From a virus: a DNA stretch of 20,071 nt. Of the stretch, positions 7,894 through 19,932 are shown one piece after another. The position numbers were made by a program, and so were the translations under genes. Under the pieces are notes generated by a model. It had not been told where the DNA came from, did not search any database, and saw only the letters and a program-made list of their open reading frames with translations. The number at the start of each line of letters is the position of its first letter. Position 1 is the stretch's first letter. The stretch lies in IMG/VR virus record IMGVR_UViG_3300044705_000027, positions 1 through 20,071 of that record; one strand, 5' to 3'.

Positions 7894-8802
7894 TTATAGA
7901 CCAGTTGAAGCATAAGCAGCTCTCCAATCAGTCCAACCGAAAGAGAAACGACAATAAGTTTTGTATTTTTGGACTTCTTGGTCGAATGCTCCATCATTAG
8001 TGAACTCAGGAGAGTTACGATTATAATGCTTTAAGCCATTTGGAACTCCACTTAACATAAAGTAAGCAGTAGAAGAAGTGAGGTAGTGATTAACTACATA
8101 ACCTCTTGGAATAGAACCAAGCTGACGCATAGCGTTAATATCGTTATTAGCAGTACCGCTTTGCAAAATACTTCCCAAGATTCTTTCGGTAGTAAAACGA
8201 AGAGCAGGTGGAATAACGAGTTTTTTGCCTTCAATAGGATTTACCATACCCATATAGTTAAGTGAGGTATCCATTTGAATTAGTAAGTTTTCTATAGCAG
8301 TTTCAGAAATTGCTGCTGCCGCTCCTAAGTTACTTTGACTACCGGAAAGCGTTGGATGTGATGCGCTAAATAATGGTTGTCCGTCACCACCTACAGCAAC
8401 AGATGAATTAGTGCCATTATTTAAAACATTTGCCCCAATAGTTTCATAAGTCCTTTTAAGAGCATCTCCTAATTCACGCATACCATACATTAGAATATCC
8501 AATGTTTTGCCATCATCTTTAGCTTCTCTAGAAATTTGGAAACCAAGACCATAAGCATTATGGTTATAGAAAGTAGTATATGCTTGTTGATTGCTTGTAT
8601 ATTGAGTAGCTTGTGCTTCAGGTTTAACTGGTACATAAGTGAAACCAGTATTAAGCACATCCATCTCAAAAGCATCATTTGATTGATGAATTTCAAAAAT
8701 TTCTTTCCATTCATCATATTGTTGACTATATTGACCCCACCAGTTATCTACTAATGGTTTCAAGTTTGCTGGGAAATTACCCCTTACTATTACGCCGACC
8801 AT
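7894..8802 (-). CDS. major capsid protein (302 aa, HK97-fold type)
   Basis: This is the probable coat protein. It has the best ribosome-binding site in the window (AAGGAG, ten bases before the ATG at 8802), as expected for the most abundant virion protein. Features fitting HK97-fold coats are an N-terminal acidic/aromatic arm (WWGQYSQQYDEWKEIFEIHQ, 21-40), a region AYGLGFQISREAKDDGKTLD (83-102) that fits an E-loop to spine-helix transition, and GGDGQPLFSASHPTL (138-152), where 'P-L-F-S-x-x-H-P' is recurrent in phage coats. It also has VIPPALRFTTERIL (196-209), the 'V-x-P-P-x-L-x-x-x-A/T-x-x-I-L' P-domain motif. It lies downstream of scaffold and decoration genes. No protease gene is visible nearby, consistent with an uncleaved, P22-like coat assembled on a scaffold. 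Confidence 0.88.
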   Translation of the reverse strand: MVGVIVRGNFPANLKPLVDNWWGQYSQQYDEWKEIFEIHQSNDAFEMDVLNTGFTYVPVKPEAQATQYTSNQQAYTTFYNHNAYGLGFQISREAKDDGKTLDILMYGMRELGDALKRTYETIGANVLNNGTNSSVAVGGDGQPLFSASHPTLSGSQSNLGAAAAISETAIENLLIQMDTSLNYMGMVNPIEGKKLVIPPALRFTTERILGSILQSGTANNDINAMRQLGSIPRGYVVNHYLTSSTAYFMLSGVPNGLKHYNRNSPEFTNDGAFDQEVQKYKTYCRFSFGWTDWRAAYASTGL

Positions 8803-10165: not shown

Positions 10166-11128
10166 TTAATTTTGGTTCTTAAAATAGCTTTTTACATAAG
10201 CTTCTCTGGTTGATATTCCCCTTTCTACTGCCCAATCACATGTTTCTTTAGCTCCCTTTGGCAAATCATTATAAGTTTTATGTCGAGTGTTTGCGTTTCC
10301 CATTCCTCCCAAATCATTACCTTCTACCATTTGAATAGTGCTGCGTTTTTGAAATTTATTTGGGTAAATTGTTTTGATTTTAGCGCTTACCATTTCCAAT
10401 CTTTGGTTAAGCGGAAGATGGGCAGTTTGAGGATTCATCAATAAAGAATTATCATAAGCGGCAGCCATATTGCGCATTTCTATATCTTGGTCAAACCAAC
10501 TATTATTTTGTTTCCAACCATTAATAGTCATTTGATCTTGCGGAGATAATTGAGGAGCAGAAGGGACTGAAGGAGTTGGATTAGTTGGAACTTCTTTGTA
10601 AGTATTACTATACTTCTGCTTTTGTTCTAATAGCTGAGCGTAACGTTCAAAGTCCATTTCTTCTTTAGCTCGCTCAATCTCTCTATTAAGATAAGTTTGG
10701 GTGTTTTCCAAATCTCTTATTTCTCGAGTTTTATTTATCTCAAGAAGAGTGCGCATATCTTCACTCATCTTTTGTATTTGCTGCTCAAGAATTTGGTTTT
10801 TGTCTGCTAATTCTCTTAATCTTTCATTTCTGATTGGGGCTATTCGTTGAGAATTTTCTAAAAATTCTTTGTAATCAATAAATTGACGCTCTGAACCATC
10901 TTTATTCTTATTATTAAATAATTCTTGAGGTCTCCAGCCTTCATTCCAAGCTATTCTTGCGTCATCATCAGGTAAGTTATCAAATATTTCTCTTTCTTTA
11001 ATTTTCCTTTCTTCAGGAGGCAAAGAACGTAAATCAGGAGCAGAAGAAGCTTCTTGATTATTATTTGTTATCTCTGCAACCTGTGCTACAGATATATTTG
11101 GTTGTAAGTTATCATTATTGTCTGTCAT
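10166..11128 (-). CDS. capsid scaffolding protein (320 aa)
   Basis: The protein has the standard build of a phage scaffold. Residues 1-35 form a polar disordered N-terminus. Residues 36-95 hold an acidic segment with DDDARIAWNEGWRPQELFNN (54-73), a 'G-W-R-P-x-E-x-F' pattern seen in podoviral scaffolds. Residues 100-178 are a highly charged long helix or coiled coil (NERLRELADKNQILEQQIQK...), 180-197 are a proline-rich linker, and the C-terminus is basic and helical (WAVERGISTREAYVKSYFKN, 299-318) and could bind coat subunits as P22 scaffold does. It is encoded between portal and coat. AGAGGA lies upstream of the ATG at 11128, which overlaps the end of the GroES-like gene by 14 bases. Cleavage sites or a fused protease are not seen. 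Confidence 0.8.
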   Translation of the reverse strand: MTDNNDNLQPNISVAQVAEITNNNQEASSAPDLRSLPPEERKIKEREIFDNLPDDDARIAWNEGWRPQELFNNKNKDGSERQFIDYKEFLENSQRIAPIRNERLRELADKNQILEQQIQKMSEDMRTLLEINKTREIRDLENTQTYLNREIERAKEEMDFERYAQLLEQKQKYSNTYKEVPTNPTPSVPSAPQLSPQDQMTINGWKQNNSWFDQDIEMRNMAAAYDNSLLMNPQTAHLPLNQRLEMVSAKIKTIYPNKFQKRSTIQMVEGNDLGGMGNANTRHKTYNDLPKGAKETCDWAVERGISTREAYVKSYFKNQN

Positions 11129-11495
11129 TATTATCCTCTAAAATTGGTTGTTCATTTTTTATATCCCATTTTTGCCATCCTAATATATTAGATGAAGCAT
11201 CATCTATTAGTCGAAAGTAGTTATCCTTTTCGCTTAACATCATAACGCCAGTGTGAGCCTTAAAGAATACTAAAGATCCAACTGGTATTTCGTGTTCATT
11301 CCACGAAAAATTCTTACCTTTTTTAGCTAAAATCCCAACAGTAGAATAGAAAGCTACATTTTCTCTTTGTTCAGAAGTTACTATTATTCCACCAGAAGTA
11401 CGAGGAGGGGGAATATCAAATATCCATACTAAACAGCAATCAGGTTTAATATTAATTTCTTTTAAATTAAATTGACTCAGATTTTTTTTATTCAT
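11115..11495 (-). CDS. groES: GroES-like co-chaperonin (126 aa)
   Basis: The order of motifs matches the 10-kDa chaperonin fold. Residues 19-30 (DCCLVWIFDIPP) correspond to the first strand of GroES. RTSGGIIVT (32-40) corresponds to the mobile loop, whose GGIVL segment in GroES inserts its I-V-L tripeptide into GroEL, here GGIIV. VGILAKKGK (53-61) matches 'G-x-V-L-A-V-G-x-G', and PVGSLVFFKAHTGVMMLSEK (71-90) matches 'V-G-D-I-V-I-F-N-D-G-Y-G-V-K'. FRLIDDASSNILG (94-106) matches the final strand with the 'S-D-I-L-A' ending. It is longer than bacterial GroES (about 97 aa) through both termini. By analogy with T4 gp31 it would cap host GroEL to fold a phage protein, and its position directly before scaffold and coat suggests the coat. 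The gene overlaps its neighbours by 8 and 14 bases. Confidence 0.82.
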   Translation of the reverse strand: MNKKNLSQFNLKEINIKPDCCLVWIFDIPPPRTSGGIIVTSEQRENVAFYSTVGILAKKGKNFSWNEHEIPVGSLVFFKAHTGVMMLSEKDNYFRLIDDASSNILGWQKWDIKNEQPILEDNNDRQ

Positions 11496-12621: not shown

Positions 12622-12994
12622 TAGTTATTGTAGTTATTGTAGTTTTTAGGCAAATTTGATATAAGGTATTACCTTCAATATCTAACATTTCTATTATATG
12701 AGGTTTTTCTATCCAATCTATTGATTTAATTTTGTCTCCTTGTTTATATCCCATAGTTATATAAGTTTTAAATGCTCCTTCCATATACCACATAGTTCTA
12801 TTAAAATCATGACTACGACAAGAATTTAAAATAATCATATCAGTTTCTTTTTTGCGAGAGTGAGGTAATAGATTATGTTTCTTATTACCTTCAAATATTC
12901 TAGGTATTTCTATTAATCCCGATTCTTGCAATCCAAAGTAATTTATAAGAAATCTATCTAATTCCTTAATTAGAGGGTCTAGTGATTTTTCCAT
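12608..12994 (-). CDS. unknown small protein (128 aa)
   Basis: I do not recognise this protein. The N-terminal 25 residues are an amphipathic helix (MEKSLDPLIKELDRFLINYF), followed by a basic loop GNKKHNLLPHSRKKETDMII (36-55). Next comes a segment with LNSCRSHDFNRTMWYMEGAF (56-75) and a beta-rich end (QICLKTTITTITNENI). The 'GYKQGDKIKSIDW' stretch (82-94) looks like a small SH3-type or strand-turn-strand unit, but that is impressionistic. ATG 12994 overlaps the portal stop (TAATG), so it is probably coupled to portal translation. Two cysteines occur but are not spaced for zinc. Confidence 0.62.
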   Translation of the reverse strand: MEKSLDPLIKELDRFLINYFGLQESGLIEIPRIFEGNKKHNLLPHSRKKETDMIILNSCRSHDFNRTMWYMEGAFKTYITMGYKQGDKIKSIDWIEKPHIIEMLDIEGNTLYQICLKTTITTITNENI

Positions 12995-15177
12995 TATTGT
13001 GGTTGAGTTGTTTCCATTTCAGAAATACCTGCTTCTTGTGGCATTTCTTGTTGTTGTGCTTGAGCTTGTTGCTGTTGCTGAATTTCTTGGTCTTTTGCTT
13101 GCAATTCAAGTTCAGTGCGTCTATGAATACCTTCTAATATAGCTTCATATTCTCTAATTTTTGCTTCTCTTTCTGCTAATAATTGGTCTTTTTCAGCAGC
13201 CATAGCGTTTGCTATATTTAGCAATGATTTAGTTTCAAGGTTTTCAATCTCAGCTTCTTTATACTTAATATTATATTTCTTTTCTTCCAGTTCCGCAGCT
13301 ACTTTTATTGCTTCAATTTGTACTTCTTTTGCTCTACTTTCCTGCTTAATCATTTCCATTTCAACTAATGGGTCAGGTTGAGGTTGTGGAGTGATTAAAA
13401 GGTCGTCCCGGTCTTCTATTCTCATTAAGCGAAGCACATCTTCCGCAATCTTTTGTCCATTTAAAAACGGGGCAATTGGAGATTGTAAAAGAGTTAGATA
13501 ACTATTAATTTTAGTGATGCGTTGTAAGGAAGATAAATTCTCAATATCAGCATTAGGCACTAAATCGTAATCATCTATTCTAAAATCATGCGCAACCGAA
13601 GCATCAGCAATAGTTTCATCTATCACCTTTAAATATTCTTCATCTGTTAAATGCTTAGCATTGAGCTTGAATATCTTGTCAAATTCCTCGCTAAATGATA
13701 GCGACAAACGCTTAAATATAGCTCTAAAATGCTTAATACCTTGTTCTGCATTTTGATATGCAACTGTTGGAGCGATATTAGCAGCTTGCTCTCCAGTTAT
13801 TGCTTCTGAAAGCATTCCTAGGCTTTTAGCAGTATCTAAAAGTAATTGAAGTAATACGAAAAGAGTTTGGGAAGGTTCTTTAACGGGAAGCGGAACAATA
13901 TTTTTCTCTAAATCTACGCCAAAGTTATCAACTACCTTCCATTCCCCAATTCTGAACTTATTCTCACCTGGTAATATTCCCTTAATTGACTTAGCAATAA
14001 AGCCACCTCCTCTATTAGAAAGAGTACCGGCATCAATTAACTGATTAACAATTGAGTTTGTTGCGTGATTAATATTAAAAAGCAAATGCCCTAAGCCAAT
14101 ACCATAGAAACTACCATCGGGATTTCTTTTAAATATAAACTTAGTGAAATATTGCTGTCTTCTAATTGATGCAATCCGCCCTTCTTCATTATATTCAATA
14201 TCTTCTGCTTCAAATGCTCTAACTAATCTGCAAAGCGTGTCTGTTCCTTTATGAACTGTACCAATGTAAGGTTCAGGATAACCGTCTTTATCCAAATCAT
14301 ACCACATATGTTGCTCTAAAAAGCCATGCAAATCAGAGCTTACAATACTATGATGCGGTAAATGTAAGGATTTTGGGTCTTCAAATTCGCTATTATCTCC
14401 ATCTTTATCAAAAGAAAAGTCAATAAATATGCCCTTCCTAATTCTTTCTACTATTTGCTGTCTGTATAAATCAATTATTTGGGTAACAACAGCATTTTCT
14501 AAGCTAACCGCCCTATCATGAATTATAATTTTATCTGGGAATATTACATCGCTACATATTTTTCTTTTTGCAAAGTTCCAATAAGTTTTCTTAAAAATAG
14601 TTCCGAGGGCCGCAACAGCTCCTAATAGCTGATCTGTGCTTTGTTCCCATCCATCAATATCATATTTAAGCTGCCAATTCATGAACTCCGTAACTCTATC
14701 AGCTCTTCTTTGCTTTGCTCCTACATTTTGCATGATAGGTTCTCCCGTTTCCGGATTTTGCATCTCTTCACCTTCTACATTTAAAGCAGGCTCTCCGTCA
14801 TCATTACCTATTACTACACCCTTAACTGTTTCATTTGTAATAAGCTCAGGATAAGCGAAATCTCCGAATATTCCGCATGCTGTAGCGATTATCGGCATCA
14901 ATACATTAGAAGCTTTATCCCATGGTTCAGCACGTCCTTTGTCATAGAGTAAGGTAAGCTCTAAGATTTTCCTTAATTCGTCATTTTTTTCTTTTCTGCT
15001 AGCTAAATCAGTGTTATAGCGGTCTAAGATTTGTTCTTTGATTGTTTCAGCGGTTTGTTGGTCTAATTCAGCGGCAAGATTATCACTTTCAAGAATACGC
15101 TCAATAGAAAAAGCCTCGGTAGTGATTGGCTGCGGTTCATTGATTGGTTTTTCTTTCTCTGAGTATGATTCTTTCAT
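12994..15177 (-). CDS. portal protein (727 aa, P22-size)
   Basis: The portal is the dodecameric ring through which DNA enters and leaves the head. Length is close to P22 gp1 (725 aa). Residues 82-113 carry the motif RAEPWDKASNVLMPIIATAC then GIFGDFAYPELI, a 'P-W-x-x-A-S-N-x-x-x-P-x-I-x-x-A' signature of this portal family. The core follows, with AVAALGTIFKKTYWN near 187-201 and a helix with GIGLGHLLFNINHATNSIVN around 360-380. The last 120 residues are a long charged helix ending in a glutamine-rich tail (EIQQQQQAQAQQQEMPQEAG). P22 portal also ends in a helical barrel, so this may be its counterpart. The ATG at 15177 overlaps the upstream stop as TAATG. Role assignment is strong from size, motif and place between terL and scaffold. 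Confidence 0.87.
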   Translation of the reverse strand: MKESYSEKEKPINEPQPITTEAFSIERILESDNLAAELDQQTAETIKEQILDRYNTDLASRKEKNDELRKILELTLLYDKGRAEPWDKASNVLMPIIATACGIFGDFAYPELITNETVKGVVIGNDDGEPALNVEGEEMQNPETGEPIMQNVGAKQRRADRVTEFMNWQLKYDIDGWEQSTDQLLGAVAALGTIFKKTYWNFAKRKICSDVIFPDKIIIHDRAVSLENAVVTQIIDLYRQQIVERIRKGIFIDFSFDKDGDNSEFEDPKSLHLPHHSIVSSDLHGFLEQHMWYDLDKDGYPEPYIGTVHKGTDTLCRLVRAFEAEDIEYNEEGRIASIRRQQYFTKFIFKRNPDGSFYGIGLGHLLFNINHATNSIVNQLIDAGTLSNRGGGFIAKSIKGILPGENKFRIGEWKVVDNFGVDLEKNIVPLPVKEPSQTLFVLLQLLLDTAKSLGMLSEAITGEQAANIAPTVAYQNAEQGIKHFRAIFKRLSLSFSEEFDKIFKLNAKHLTDEEYLKVIDETIADASVAHDFRIDDYDLVPNADIENLSSLQRITKINSYLTLLQSPIAPFLNGQKIAEDVLRLMRIEDRDDLLITPQPQPDPLVEMEMIKQESRAKEVQIEAIKVAAELEEKKYNIKYKEAEIENLETKSLLNIANAMAAEKDQLLAEREAKIREYEAILEGIHRRTELELQAKDQEIQQQQQAQAQQQEMPQEAGISEMETTQPQ

Positions 15178-16001: not shown

Positions 16002-17600
16002 TTAATACCCCGTTATTTCATTAGTCCGTCGTTCAAAAGAAGAATAACTCATTGTTTGCATTCTTTCATCAGCCATTGGAAATACAACGCCCATTTTTGA
16101 ATCCAATATTCTACTCAAAGCATCTAACATGTCATCATGCGTGCAAGCCGGATATTGCATATATTCCTCTTTGATAAAAGTTTGTACTAAATCTCTTGGC
16201 TTTCCTTCTACATCGATATACTCAATCCTCGGCGGCATATATATTCTACTATTACGATATAGCGGCTCTAATCTCATAATACGCTTGTCTTTTCCTCCTA
16301 ATTTCTCATCTAGCGCAACAATATTAAAGCGGTAATTATACTGCGCCATTTTTTCTTGTATATGTTGAATATCCGCTTGCATTCCATATTGCTCATATCC
16401 TACATGTAGCGGCTTGTATTTTCTAACAAGATTAAATAGCATTTGAGCTTTTTCGCTAAGCGATAGTCTATCCCTTATCATATCTACAATATAGTAATTC
16501 TCATCTTCACACACAGCAATTACTATCATTACAGTATAGTCGCTATTTTTTTCTTTACTACCTGCCGGGTCAACAACTATGTACAAATTACCAGCTCTCT
16601 CAGTTGCAAAATTATATTGTGCATATTTGAGCCATTCAAATTTAAATCCTCTGACACTATCAGCAGTGGGATTCATTAGATACTGACATGCAATATTATA
16701 ACGATTTAAATCCCTTATAATCTGTTGCCATTCTTCCGACTTCATATAGACCAACTTACCATCTAATTGTCCATTATCAGTGGCAGGATATTTTCTTGCT
16801 TTAACACTACCAGCATTGATTAATTGACAATGTAAATCATTCCAATGATAGAAAGTTCCAATATGACGCCTGATAGCTGGTAATGCCTTCATAAAGTAAT
16901 TTTGTGCACCATCCCAACTAGTTTTACTTTTAAGTATTTGTTCTGGTGTAGATACATTAGATTCTCTTACGCAGTCATCAAGTATCATTACATTACATCT
17001 TTTACCTACTGGCAAATCTAAGTTCAATCCGAAAGCTTCTAATGTAGGATAGCTACTATTCTTTTGTCTAAATGTGAGAGTAGATAGATTCCAACGGTCA
17101 GCATGCTTAGAAGGATTATCCCAAAGTACATCAGGGAACAAATCTTTTAAGAATTGATTAGACTCACATTCTCGCTTAATCTTATATAGATGCTCTTTGG
17201 CTAAATCTAAAGTAGCAGAAAATATCATAAATGAAGGCTCACTTCCTCCGGTGATTTCTTTCCATTCTGGCAATGGATTCTCACCATGAGAAGCTAGAAT
17301 ATCCTGTATTGTCTTACCGAAAGTAATGATAGTTGATTTACAACTGCCTCTTGCCCATAAATCTAGATATCCATTTGGCTCTTTCTCTACTTCTTTACAT
17401 CTAGCAAATAAGAAAGGATGCTCGATAAACTTCCTGTTCAACACAAAATAAAGTAAGAAGAATAAATCTGTACGAGCTAATTGCCTATAGAGCAATTTCT
17501 TGTCTTTATCATTTAGTTCTATAGTACGGTCTAGGAAATCTCGGTATTCCTGCGCATTAGTATAGTGCGCACAAATGCTTGGAGTAAGTTTGATTTGCAT
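16002..17600 (-). CDS. terL: terminase large subunit (532 aa)
   Basis: This is the packaging ATPase/nuclease. The ATPase half has a Walker A-type motif ARGSCKST (83-90, the R-G-x-x-K-S-T form common in phage terminases), a Walker B NVMILDDCVRES (203-214) with the acidic pair D208-D209, and a likely coupling motif FYHWND (250-255). The nuclease half has three acidic clusters of the RNase H-like fold: IVVDPAG (341-347, D344), VGYEQYG (400-406, E403) and HDDMLDAL (488-495, D489/D490/D493). Length is typical. The start at ATG 17600 has no Shine-Dalgarno; instead an extended -10 box lies 11 bases upstream, so the mRNA may be almost leaderless. No recognisable small subunit is adjacent. Confidence 0.93.
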   Translation of the reverse strand: MQIKLTPSICAHYTNAQEYRDFLDRTIELNDKDKKLLYRQLARTDLFFLLYFVLNRKFIEHPFLFARCKEVEKEPNGYLDLWARGSCKSTIITFGKTIQDILASHGENPLPEWKEITGGSEPSFMIFSATLDLAKEHLYKIKRECESNQFLKDLFPDVLWDNPSKHADRWNLSTLTFRQKNSSYPTLEAFGLNLDLPVGKRCNVMILDDCVRESNVSTPEQILKSKTSWDGAQNYFMKALPAIRRHIGTFYHWNDLHCQLINAGSVKARKYPATDNGQLDGKLVYMKSEEWQQIIRDLNRYNIACQYLMNPTADSVRGFKFEWLKYAQYNFATERAGNLYIVVDPAGSKEKNSDYTVMIVIAVCEDENYYIVDMIRDRLSLSEKAQMLFNLVRKYKPLHVGYEQYGMQADIQHIQEKMAQYNYRFNIVALDEKLGGKDKRIMRLEPLYRNSRIYMPPRIEYIDVEGKPRDLVQTFIKEEYMQYPACTHDDMLDALSRILDSKMGVVFPMADERMQTMSYSSFERRTNEITGY

Positions 17601-17765: not shown

Positions 17766-18029
17766 TTAAGAAGCAAAACACTTAACGCAACTTAACTTAC
17801 CACAATAACAAGTTTTATCATTTTTGCGTTGCTCTTGTGCTTTTTTATCTAAATCCATATAAATCTTAATTGCTTCCGCCATTACCCAAGCTCTAGATTC
17901 TAAGTTGACTTTTGCAAATTCAAGTATCTTTTTGGCTCTTGCGAAACAATCATCATCTAAATCAAATGTAATCACATTTTCTTCGTTACCTTTTTTCTCC
18001 ATTTTCTTTAATTTGAACCAACTTAACAT
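17766..18029 (-). CDS. small RHH-like protein with a C-terminal cysteine cluster (87 aa)
   Basis: Residues 19-62 (VITFDLDDDCFARAKKILEF, then AKVNLESRAWVMAEAIKIYM) have a strand followed by two helices, resembling a ribbon-helix-helix DNA-binding unit. The C-terminus has TCYCGKLSCVKC (73-84), with cysteines at 74, 76, 81 and 84 that could bind zinc. I do not know a named family with this combination. An alternative start at the second Met (residue 10) is possible; neither has a clear Shine-Dalgarno. It is the last gene before the operator-like region and terL, a place where a small terminase subunit would be expected, and DNA-binding character would fit that or a repressor. Both roles are inference. 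Confidence 0.62.
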   Translation of the reverse strand: MLSWFKLKKMEKKGNEENVITFDLDDDCFARAKKILEFAKVNLESRAWVMAEAIKIYMDLDKKAQEQRKNDKTCYCGKLSCVKCFAS

Positions 18030-18040
18030 TTAACAGCTGC

Positions 18041-18196
18041 TTATTTTTTATTAGTCCTTTTCTTTCGAATATATTTTATTATCAAATAAACACATTCATT
18101 ACAAATCTCAGCTTGAGGTCCTATTATTAACTCTCTTATTTCCTCCTCAGGTTTAGCACAAAAAGAACAACATAGTTTACCATCTATTACAGGCAT
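18041..18196 (-). CDS. stand-alone ClpX-type zinc-binding domain protein (51 aa)
   Basis: This short gene was found by reading the 18030-18229 gap. ATG 18196 gives MPVIDGKLCCSFCAKPEEEI, then RELIIGPQAEICNECVYLII, ending KYIRKKRTNKK before TAA at 18041-18043. The core CSFCAKPEEEIRELIIGP (10-27) plus EICNECV (30-36) closely matches the N-terminal zinc-binding domain of ClpX, 'C-S-F-C-G-K-S-x-x-E-V-R-K-L-I-A-G-P-x-x-Y-I-C-D-E-C-V'. The cysteines are C10, C13, C32 and C35 with the exact ClpX spacing (two, eighteen, two). The AAA+ module of ClpX is absent. In ClpX this domain dimerises and binds adaptors and some substrates. A free copy could act as an adaptor-binding decoy, inhibitor or partner of host ClpX; this is inference. 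It lacks a clear Shine-Dalgarno and ends 11 bases before the next gene. Confidence 0.82.
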   Translation of the reverse strand: MPVIDGKLCCSFCAKPEEEIRELIIGPQAEICNECVYLIIKYIRKKRTNKK

Positions 18197-18229: not shown

Positions 18230-18442
18230 CTAAGTATAAGTCTTTAATTCTACTTTATTGTACTGCTTACAGTTCTTACATAAGAAAACATATGCAGCTT
18301 TAGAATATAATTCTTTAAATTTCTTTATTGAATATTTCTTACTTGTTATTTCAGAACAATAAACACAGCGAGAATATAGAAGCTTTTCTTGATTAGAATA
18401 GCATAATTGATATTCAAGAGCTTTATTGATTAATTCAAACAC
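18230..18442 (-). CDS. small zinc-ribbon-like protein (70 aa)
   Basis: The best start is GTG 18442, because GGAGAG sits six bases before it. It overlaps the upstream 57-aa gene's stop (GTGTTTGA). A TTG at 18460 in frame would add six residues but has no Shine-Dalgarno. The product begins with a helix (MFELINKALEYQLCYSNQEK), then has SRCVYCSEITSKKY (25-38) and YVFLCKNCKQYNKVEL (51-66). The two C-x-x-C knuckles (C26/C29 and C55/C58), 25 residues apart, are the pattern of a zinc ribbon. No target can be read from the sequence. It lies directly before the ClpX-type zinc protein. Confidence 0.62.
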   Translation of the reverse strand: MFELINKALEYQLCYSNQEKLLYSRCVYCSEITSKKYSIKKFKELYSKAAYVFLCKNCKQYNKVELKTYT

Positions 18443-18608
18443 AATATTCTCTCCAATCAATGAAATGATAATTACTACAATGCCAGCTTATTTTAATTGT
18501 TTCATTATTAGCCCAGAGCATCTGTTCTAATTCTTCCTGAAGAGCAGCATAATCAAATAATTGAAGATGAAAAGGGCAACCTTGATAAATTGGCTTAAAA
18601 TCTTTCAT
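18435..18608 (-). CDS. small protein with Cys/His residues (57 aa)
   Basis: The frame opens at ATG 18608, which shares its ATGA with the stop of the 92-aa gene (4-base overlap), and closes at TGA 18435-18437 inside the start of the 70-aa gene. This tight coupling on both sides supports it as a real gene although short. The product is MKDFKPIYQGCPFHLQLFDY, then AALQEELEQMLWANNETIKI, then SWHCSNYHFIDWREYCV. CPFH (11-14) and WHCSNYH (42-48) could bind metal, but the spacing is not a known motif. Otherwise it is a mix of one acidic helix and short strands. Function is unknown. Confidence 0.6.
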   Translation of the reverse strand: MKDFKPIYQGCPFHLQLFDYAALQEELEQMLWANNETIKISWHCSNYHFIDWREYCV

Positions 18609-18883
18609 TTTATCATCTCCTCCAACCCTTTCTCTAGCTCATTAATTGCCCATTCTATCTCTGGGTCGAAAGGAATAAAATTAATTACATTTTTAAAACT
18701 ACACCCCTTGCAATCAAATCCTAAACGCTGAGTTGATATTATTTTATTAAATTGCTCTTCTGAACAATCAGGGAGTAAATGACTATCGCCACAATTACCA
18801 CAATATAAACACAATTCTTGTGAAATGGGATTATACCTTATTCTAATATTTCCATCGTCATCACAAATAAGAGGGAATTTCAT
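18605..18883 (-). CDS. small zinc-ribbon-like protein (92 aa)
   Basis: The protein has seven cysteines. C25, C28 and C31 fall in ELCLYCGNCGD (23-33), and C58 and C61 fall in FDCKGCSF (57-64); two C-x-x-C knuckles about 30 residues apart suggest a zinc ribbon. The N-terminus (ICDDDGNIRIRYNPISQELC, 6-25) is strand-like, and the C-terminus is an acidic helix (EIEWAINELEKGLEEMIK, 75-92). The shape 'beta-strand, knuckle, strand, knuckle, acidic helix' is seen in small phage nucleic-acid- or protein-binding factors, but I cannot name one. It starts four bases after the stop of the 67-aa membrane gene and overlaps the next gene as ATGA. Confidence 0.65.
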   Translation of the reverse strand: MKFPLICDDDGNIRIRYNPISQELCLYCGNCGDSHLLPDCSEEQFNKIISTQRLGFDCKGCSFKNVINFIPFDPEIEWAINELEKGLEEMIK

Positions 18884-18887
18884 ATTT

Positions 18888-19091
18888 TTATCTCATTGCT
18901 TCTTCTACTAGCTCACAAGCTTCTTCACAAGAATAACCTTGTTGTTGCAATTCTTTTATAATCTCTTTCCTAAAAGCCGGTTTATCTTTGGAATAATAAT
19001 AGCATAGTCCTATTATTCGCAATAACAGACTTCTAATAAAAAGACCTATTATAATCGCTCCCCAAACTTTAAGAATAAACATTAATGTCAT
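18888..19091 (-). CDS. single-pass membrane protein (67 aa)
   Basis: Residues 2-30 (TLMFILKVWGAIIIGLFIRS then LLLRIIGLC) form a hydrophobic helix containing a few basic residues, so one membrane pass with an inside-facing basic tail is likely. The C-terminal half (DKPAFRKEIIKELQQQGYSC, 36-55, then EEACELVEEAMR) is a charged soluble helix pair with UBA-like or zinc-free bundle character. The ATG at 19091 overlaps the TGA of the Ntn-hydrolase gene by four bases (ATGA), so it is probably translationally coupled to it. Its start region repeats that of the hydrolase (AATAAACTATGACATTA on the coding strand). Function is unknown; a membrane anchor or partner for the hydrolase is possible. Confidence 0.65.
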   Translation of the reverse strand: MTLMFILKVWGAIIIGLFIRSLLLRIIGLCYYYSKDKPAFRKEIIKELQQQGYSCEEACELVEEAMR

Positions 19092-19651
19092 AGTTTATTC
19101 CATTCTCCATTATTAAAGCAAAATATATCTATTTGATTTTCTCCAACATTATAACTACAAGGTATCATGTAGTCTATTTTGTTTAAAATATAAAATACAT
19201 TTTCACAAAATTGTTTTATATTTAATTTATCAGGAATCTTTATGATAGATAATATTAACGCCTTGGCTGCATCATGTTGCAATCCTATTGCCCAATAATC
19301 ACCAACATTAAAACAACCTAATCTCCCATCAATTAAATGGATTCCATGCTTATCTATTATCAGACCATTAAAATCTGAATCCTGCATAATCTTGTCTGTA
19401 TACTCTGTTTTATATAAATCAATTAAGCTAGTAATAAAATAATGACCTTCTATATCATATCTAATATTATCTCCGATTAATTCTCCTATATACTGAGCCG
19501 ATATAGCTGTACCACTACTTAAGATTAAACGCTGGTTCTCTTCATCTAGAATATGTTTATCTGCTAAGATATAGCTATTATCTAGCCAAATTCTTCTATC
19601 AGTAGCAGCCCAGATTTCATCTTTATACTTAAATGCAAATGCTAATGTCAT
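19088..19651 (-). CDS. proteasome/HslV-like Ntn-hydrolase (187 aa)
   Basis: The N-terminus MTLAFAFKYKDEIWAATDRR has the pattern of proteasome beta subunits and HslV: a Met followed by Thr, a strand, a turn, then 'A-A-x-D'. Counting from the Thr as residue 1, the Asp of ATDRR is residue 17, as in HslV and proteasomes, and a Lys (ADKHIL) falls at position 31, near the catalytic Lys33. Then come LILSSGTAISAQYIGELIGD (residues 42-61), matching 'V-I-A-G-F-A-G-G-T-A-D-A', and NGLIIDKHGIHLIDG and GDYWAIGLQHDAAKALI (118-134), matching 'A-I-G-S-G-G-x-Y-A-x-A-A-A'. Length is near HslV (about 175 aa). The initiating Met would need removal to free the Thr. Substrates and whether it forms rings are unknown. 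It heads the operon with the membrane and zinc proteins. Confidence 0.75.
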   Translation of the reverse strand: MTLAFAFKYKDEIWAATDRRIWLDNSYILADKHILDEENQRLILSSGTAISAQYIGELIGDNIRYDIEGHYFITSLIDLYKTEYTDKIMQDSDFNGLIIDKHGIHLIDGRLGCFNVGDYWAIGLQHDAAKALILSIIKIPDKLNIKQFCENVFYILNKIDYMIPCSYNVGENQIDIFCFNNGEWNKL

Positions 19652-19932
19652 AGTTTATTTATTTTTTGCGCGGCCCCTTACCTCCTCAGAAATAAAGGGT
19701 TCAAGGCATTTTAACTCAATAATTACTGGCAATTTCCCGGCCTTTTATTTCTTATTTATTTTATTTATACTAAAAATCCCCAGCCCAACAAAATCAGGTA
19801 TCCGCCCGGTGGACAAAACGCACTCCCCCTTGATATATGCGGGTCGAGCTTCTTTTAAAGTAAAATGTTAAGCCTCAAAATGGCTCGAGTCAGCAAATCC
19901 GGGATTCGGCACGGTGAGCAAATGGCACTTAG
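19652..19932. other. G+C-richer non-coding stretch upstream of the Ntn-hydrolase operon
   Basis: I find no supported gene here. Much of 19781-19930 is visibly richer in G+C than the surrounding phage sequence, and contains short palindromes (AATCCCGGATT and GGCTCGAGTC-type strings). A perfect Shine-Dalgarno-like AGGAGGT (minus strand, 19686-19680) lies about 28 bases before the hydrolase ATG, too far to serve it directly. The minus strand has a reading frame of about 40 codons (19869 to about 19750) without a good start. Possible meanings are a packaging or replication site, an acquired host fragment or a leader region. Confidence 0.45.

Follow-up and report, generated by a model that had tools for sequence, protein, structure and literature searches.

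The window analysed here, a stretch of 20,071 bases, is the entire virus record IMGVR_UViG_3300044705_000027, and our findings cover that record, which is possibly a fragment of a phage genome. The gene on which we concentrate encodes P0001 and belongs to a run that lies wholly on the minus strand: P0001 is followed by small ORFs and then by the terminase large subunit (TerL), the portal protein and the major head protein. The features are:

19088..19651, minus strand: gene for P0001, a putative proteasome-like (Ntn-hydrolase-fold) protein of 187 aa, described from the ORF, a profile, an alignment-based AF2 model and fold matches; its landmarks, in protein numbering, are Met1-Thr2, Asp18, Lys32/His33, Gly47, A121-I122-G123 and Asp160
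18888..19091, minus strand: ORF of 67 aa, hydrophobic N-terminus by eye, no clear family
18041..18196, minus strand: stand-alone ClpX C4-type zinc-binding domain of 51 aa (PF06689, 42.3 bits against a cut-off of 27)
16002..17600, minus strand: terminase large subunit (phrog_38, E 2.4e-55)
12994..15177, minus strand: portal protein (phrog_1216, E 6.1e-28)
7894..8802, minus strand: major head protein (phrog_371, E 2.9e-14)
19083..19099, no strand: 17-bp direct repeat, copy 1, over the start codon of the 67-aa ORF
19643..19659, no strand: 17-bp direct repeat, copy 2, over the start codon of the proteasome-like ORF

A preliminary description of the window had placed a proteasome/HslV-like hydrolase at 19088–19651, and the ORF, its strand and the residues named are all correct: behind the Met-Thr start, and numbered with the threonine as 1, P0001 has Asp17, Lys31, SSGTA from position 44 and GDYWAIG ending at Gly122. 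The ORF begins with ATG, and because an in-frame stop lies two codons before it, the start cannot be placed further upstream. At 28.5% GC, 187 codons free of stops were computed to arise by chance with a probability of ∼ 1e-7, and P0001 is therefore a real gene. A strong Shine-Dalgarno-like GAGGAGG is found on the minus strand at about 19680–19690, ∼ 30 nt upstream of the start, a spacing that is too far under the usual rules. At its other end the gene overlaps the 67-aa ORF by ATGA, as is usual for the spacing of phage genes. The two repeat copies are 100% identical, lie 560 bp apart and bracket the P0001 ORF, an arrangement that looks as if the gene might come or go as one piece. Between the P0001 gene and TerL, three small minus-strand ORFs (17766–18029, 18230–18460 and 18605–18883) carry paired CxxC/CxC by eye; they are possible zinc ribbons, with no confident Pfam match. 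Within the head gene cluster, 11115–11495 (minus strand) matches weakly the phage GroES-like co-chaperonin family phrog_3188 (E 3.2e-4), and a similar-sized ORF occupies, by eye, the same position in contig L001 (7363–7698).

By direct search, P0001 is an orphan. HMMER gave no match in Pfam or NCBIfam (E up to 10 in each) or in PHROGs (E up to 1), and phmmer none among PDB sequences; tblastn found no relative in 50,697 phage records (E up to 10) or in 72,556 plasmids. Scans of IMG/VR with different peptide patterns returned 2, 37 and 27 pattern matches and scans of GTDB genomes 240 each, with no relative among them; these scans require an exact 8-residue pattern and thus make visible only fairly close relatives. 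Nor was a P0001 homologue detected in the fetched stretches of 59 capsid-related and 80 TerL-related loci. Since three catalytic-looking residues are by themselves weak evidence, a profile is the better test of kinship.

One of the capsid-related contigs, L041, encodes between TerL and portal a phage 'peptidase HslV family' protein of ∼ 145 aa. It is a PPH, a kind of proteasome homologue that the accessible part of PMC8665760 (Fuchs et al., 2021) describes as ∼ 140 aa long, present in phages and their hosts and said to lack helix H2. With this protein as seed, relatives were found encoded in 262 IMG/VR stretches, 80 of which were kept as the PPH set; patterns such as MTTIAYKD were used to fetch them, which in part builds in their N-terminal conservation. 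All four PPH tested with hmmscan matched PHROG 1040 ('peptidase HslV family') strongly, and E. coli HslV did likewise. PF00227 detects nothing in the window record or in the 30 records related by capsid that were searched, but it also misses the true PPH of L041 and is therefore too blunt a probe.

Two profiles were tried. The less convincing was built from 40 of the 80 PPH only: P0001 came top of the 139 window ORFs with 9.1 bits, and was outscored by one unrelated ORF (10.5 bits) and by 3 of 20,000 shuffles. The broader profile comprised 53 sequences (the 40 PPH, 11 annotated phage HslV-family proteins and two HslV) and scored P0001 at 12.4 bits over residues 9–123, with an E of 9.5e-4, first among the 139 window ORFs. 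When it was run on 11,311 ORFs, the next best after P0001, the true PPH of L041 aside, reached 8.8 bits; the best shuffle reached 11.0 bits and none of 20,000 attained the score of P0001. hhalign with the single-sequence P0001 query gave a probability of 56% over 103 columns. Judged from these comparisons, the resemblance of P0001 to HslV/proteasome-like proteins is remote, yet more than chance. The kinship proposed in the preliminary description is accordingly borne out by our own 53-sequence profile, whereas the public families (Pfam PF00227 and PHROGs) return no match. That the resemblance is a coincidence and that P0001 has some other fold would agree with the lack of any direct database match and with an uninformative single-sequence model (see below); it is hard to reconcile with a score above every shuffle and above all ORFs except the L041 PPH, and we consider it improbable.

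AF2 run on the single sequence failed (pLDDT 37.9), and fold searches with that model gave no match; the fold prediction of P0001 therefore depends on the alignment rows chosen. Alignment A5 (41 relatives), picked over alignments A3 and A4 for its lined-up catalytic columns, gave a model with pLDDT 73.2 and pTM 0.70, poor in the C-terminal 30 residues. Its strands and helices are ordered as in proteasome subunits, with helices at 49–62, 75–80 and 83–91 before the strand at 95, and the four-layer alpha-beta-beta-alpha fold is seen in it but not reproduced by the failed single-sequence model. Foldseek matched the A5-based model to 613 PDB chains at E ≤ 1e-3 (best 3.3e-7), and the best 50 of the 613 are all proteasome or HslV. 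VIA-align gave Z 16.8 with a 20S subunit (rmsd 3.3 over 171) and Z 16.6 with the eukaryotic HslV 4hnz (rmsd 2.7 over 163). Among the predicted viral structures of BFVD there were 19 matches at E ≤ 1e-3; those that are named all come from tailed phages, and several carry the name HslV or proteasome. A PDB search with the A5 alignment itself matches HslV, but HslV and PPH rows are part of that alignment, so the match says nothing about P0001. The fold of the good model may likewise come from those rows, and we take the model as support for a proteasome-beta/HslV fold, not as proof. Given relatives, the modelling predicts the fold that the preliminary description implied and no other. Secondary-structure elements of the single-sequence model recur for the most part in the alignment-based one (strands 5–9, 12–17, 20–23, 26–29, 97–100, 103–106, 112–116 and 119–125; helices 52–58 and 145–158), a further point against coincidence. 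On balance, it is very probable that P0001 is of the proteasome-like family and fold.

The active site gives a more divided picture. We use the proteasome position names Thr1, Asp17, Lys33 and Gly47 as they appear in the accessible text of PMC8665760. P0001 was aligned to 53 phage and bacterial HslV-like relatives, with no close homologues among them. The Thr2 column holds Thr in 51 of the 53 (two gaps). At the level of sequence, the Met1-Thr2 start presents the N-terminal nucleophile characteristic of proteasome-like Ntn-hydrolases, a Thr or Ser behind Met or a propeptide. Asp18, which is Asp17 counted from the threonine, stands in a column with Asp in 52/53; residue Gly47 of P0001 (protein numbering) and Gly123 stand in columns with Gly in 52/53 and 53/53, and Asp160, presumably the Asp166-like position, in one with Asp in 51/53. 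The catalytic Lys column (Lys in 52/53) falls on His33 of P0001, and Lys32 adjoins it. Leu44 occupies the column taken by eye for the proteasome oxyanion Gly47; the relatives have Gly there in 22/53 and F in 19/53. Finally, P0001 reads G-L-Q in place of G-S/T-G, with Leu124-Gln125 where the relatives have S/T (53/53) and Gly (53/53). The motif, which is a pattern observed in these sequences and not the family definition of the PPH authors, is kept in 80/80 PPH ORFs (78 by regular expression; the other two read SIGSG), and its serine we take to be proteasome Ser129, which supports catalysis.

The claim that P0001 reproduces the catalytic layout of HslV and proteasome beta subunits therefore holds only in part: Thr1, Asp17 and the Asp166-like residue are kept, whereas the Lys column lies on His33, G-L-Q replaces G-S/T-G and a Leu sits at the Gly47 position. 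With no Ser129-type motif, a Leu in place of Gly47 and a catalytic Lys displaced by one in the alignment, the protein may have lost its activity; from its sequence, P0001 could plausibly be active, but clearly less securely than the preliminary description supposed, and the odds that it is an active Thr peptidase are roughly even. A catalytically dead protein with a proteasome fold would be a binding or scaffold pseudo-enzyme, which might join or cap host HslV or another ring or bind a host protease regulator. Inactive subunits are common in proteasomes, and the replacement of a motif that is invariant among the relatives, the His in the Lys column and the Leu at the Gly47 position would all suit such a role. 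The retained Thr1 and Asp17, a Lys adjoining the right place, and the many PPH that also do without Gly at the Gly47 site do not, and we regard a dead enzyme as possible but rather unlikely.

The distribution of such genes was followed in phages related to that of the window. Whole-record searches, which covered 30 of the 59 capsid-related and 45 of the 80 TerL-related loci, found proteasome-like genes in 2/30 and 2/45 records, themselves fragments; in the fetched stretches of all 59 and 80 loci, a PPH occurs in L041 only. The order TerL - PPH - portal is seen in L041 (1243–5562, from the ORF list) and in L061 (1979–6522), whose TerL and portal belong to the same PHROG families as those of the window. 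The position of PPH genes varies: they lie by packaging genes in L041, L061, L134 and phiAH14a and elsewhere near tail, replication or lysis genes. L001, the TerL and portal of which are each 48% and the capsid 51% identical to those of the window, yielded no proteasome-like match over the 38 kb of its record. Because presence is sporadic and L001 has none, the P0001 gene looks accessory, and it is probably not a core head gene. More widely, the HslV-family protein of phage VpV262 is matched by 322 of 50,697 phage records at E ≤ 0.01, many of the matches being partial, and HslU is annotated beside none of ten further annotated HslV-family stretches in the short flanks examined.

This distribution bears on whether P0001 could be the head-maturation protease of the phage. 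Its gene adjoins packaging and head genes, and no separate prohead protease appears among the 10 proteins scanned with PHROGs, but L001, with its related TerL, portal and capsid, lacks a proteasome-like match, as do a further 27 of the 30 capsid-related records (fragments); we give this idea next to no weight. The window capsid protein also has weaker matches to phrog_4523 and phrog_133, which are head and protease fusion families.

No partner ATPase had been noticed in the window, and this observation stands: the AAA_2 (HslU-type) profile has no match in the 20-kb record, whereas 14/14 control genomes were positive. The record does contain the stand-alone ClpX zinc-binding domain, which the preliminary description does not mention and which falls below the 60-aa cut of the first ORF listing. 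This 51-aa ORF matches the zinc-binding domain (ZBD) of E. coli ClpX (2ds7) with E 3.1e-9, has no AAA+ part, and lies on the same strand and in the same gene run as P0001, about 0.9 kb downstream. In the phage collection, 26 records match the ClpX-like finger, 8 of them covered by at least 80%; some of the 26 encode a complete ClpX or resemble host DNA. Escherichia phage P88 (L240, 409–741) has a 110-aa ORF with a ClpX-type zinc finger, annotated as carboxylate-amine ligase/ClpX-like; these annotations look doubtful. A general partnership between PPH and free ClpX zinc fingers was rejected: PF06689 occurs in 0/50 PPH-bearing records and in 1/50 non-PPH records, there below the family cut-off.

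A functional link between P0001 and the zinc finger is thus a hypothesis drawn from one contig. In its simplest form, P0001 would be an accessory peptidase tied to host ClpX, the stand-alone domain joining or blocking the ClpX docking domains and so redirecting or sparing substrates. The ClpX ZBD forms dimers and docks adaptors and substrates including lambda O (available text of PMC7804408), and the 51-aa ORF with its PF06689 match shares the gene run of P0001; set against this are the PPH-bearing records with no such domain, the single instance (n = 1) and the stand-alone ClpX-like fingers of other phages such as P88, so that the coupling is very unlikely. Likewise very unlikely is that the gene run forms a proteolysis-takeover module of the phage, a diverged, unfoldase-free ring co-expressed with a ClpX domain that would pair with host ClpX and hand substrates to the ring or block ClpXP. 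The missing GSG serine would, in that case, point to an altered reaction or to a ring whose role is only regulatory.

We favour a reading in which P0001 is a strongly diverged phage Ntn-hydrolase of the HslV/PPH type, encoded by an accessory gene a short way upstream of those for packaging and the head, and we put its probability, proposed mechanism included, at about 55%. From what was established here (the ORF, its residues, the remote similarity and an alignment-dependent fold) we infer a course of events extending to Met removal, assembly, peptidase activity and substrate. The host would remove Met1 and expose Thr1 as the N-terminal nucleophile, which Asp17 and a nearby Lys would help. Subunits might assemble into a ring, by analogy with known members of the fold, and the ring could then cleave peptides or unfolded substrates, either with no unfoldase dedicated to it or by means of a host one.

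Phage proteasome homologues are frequent yet functionally uncharacterized, to go by the available part of PMC8665760, and we found no functional study of one in the open-access literature, most subscription papers being outside our scope. What distinguishes P0001 from the others is how far it has diverged, the absence of the serine motif and the ClpX finger encoded nearby. With it one could ask whether the proteasome fold serves phages as an enzyme or as a scaffold; lacking a motif kept by every relative, it helps to delimit what that fold needs, and the free zinc finger beside it offers a concrete hypothesis, inexpensive to pursue, for how phage proteasome homologues might meet host proteolysis.

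Several known systems can be compared with P0001. The accessible sections of PMC8665760 describe 22 new proteasome homologues, of which AAH is found in many phages, and phages are also indicated for CPH, PMI-4 and DAH; for the phage homologues these sections report no telling context, no AAA+ partner that co-occurs with them, no known function and few clues to one. PPH (PHROG 1040) resembles P0001 in being phage-encoded, in its Met-Thr start, in its aligned Asp, Gly and A-x-G positions and in having no AAA+ partner. P0001 is longer (187 versus ∼ 140 aa), is predicted to have extra helices at 75–91, where PPH lacks H2, and, unlike PPH, has no G-S/T-G and no match to PHROG 1040 at E ≤ 1; it is not a canonical PPH. 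HslV (ClpQ) shares with P0001 the Thr1-Asp17 spacing, the 15-residue distance between Lys31 and the SGT/GGT turn and the overall size, and its fold is matched by the P0001 model (the 4hnz comparison above). Unlike HslV, P0001 has no HslU in the window and no PF00227 match, and the Ser and Gly of GSG are missing; it is not HslV proper. The 11 annotated phage HslV-family sequences keep G-S-G, whereas P0001 does not. Similar in build are Vibrio phage VpV262 ORF47 (186 aa) and BFVD entries of ∼ 170–220 aa, which are like P0001 in length, phage origin and predicted fold, although BLASTP finds no meaningful similarity between ORF47 and P0001 (best local 12.3 bits, E 6). Of the group I homologues AAH, CPH and BPH, the first two are reported in phages (PMC8665760, Table 1), and P0001 too is phage-encoded. 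According to the available text of PMC7823757, a Salmonella jumbo phage has two HslV genes and no HslU, and a phage 'bacterial proteasome homolog' is reported in that of PMC8953757. Phage proteasome homologues without an unfoldase are thus already known, and P0001 is a divergent variant of them.
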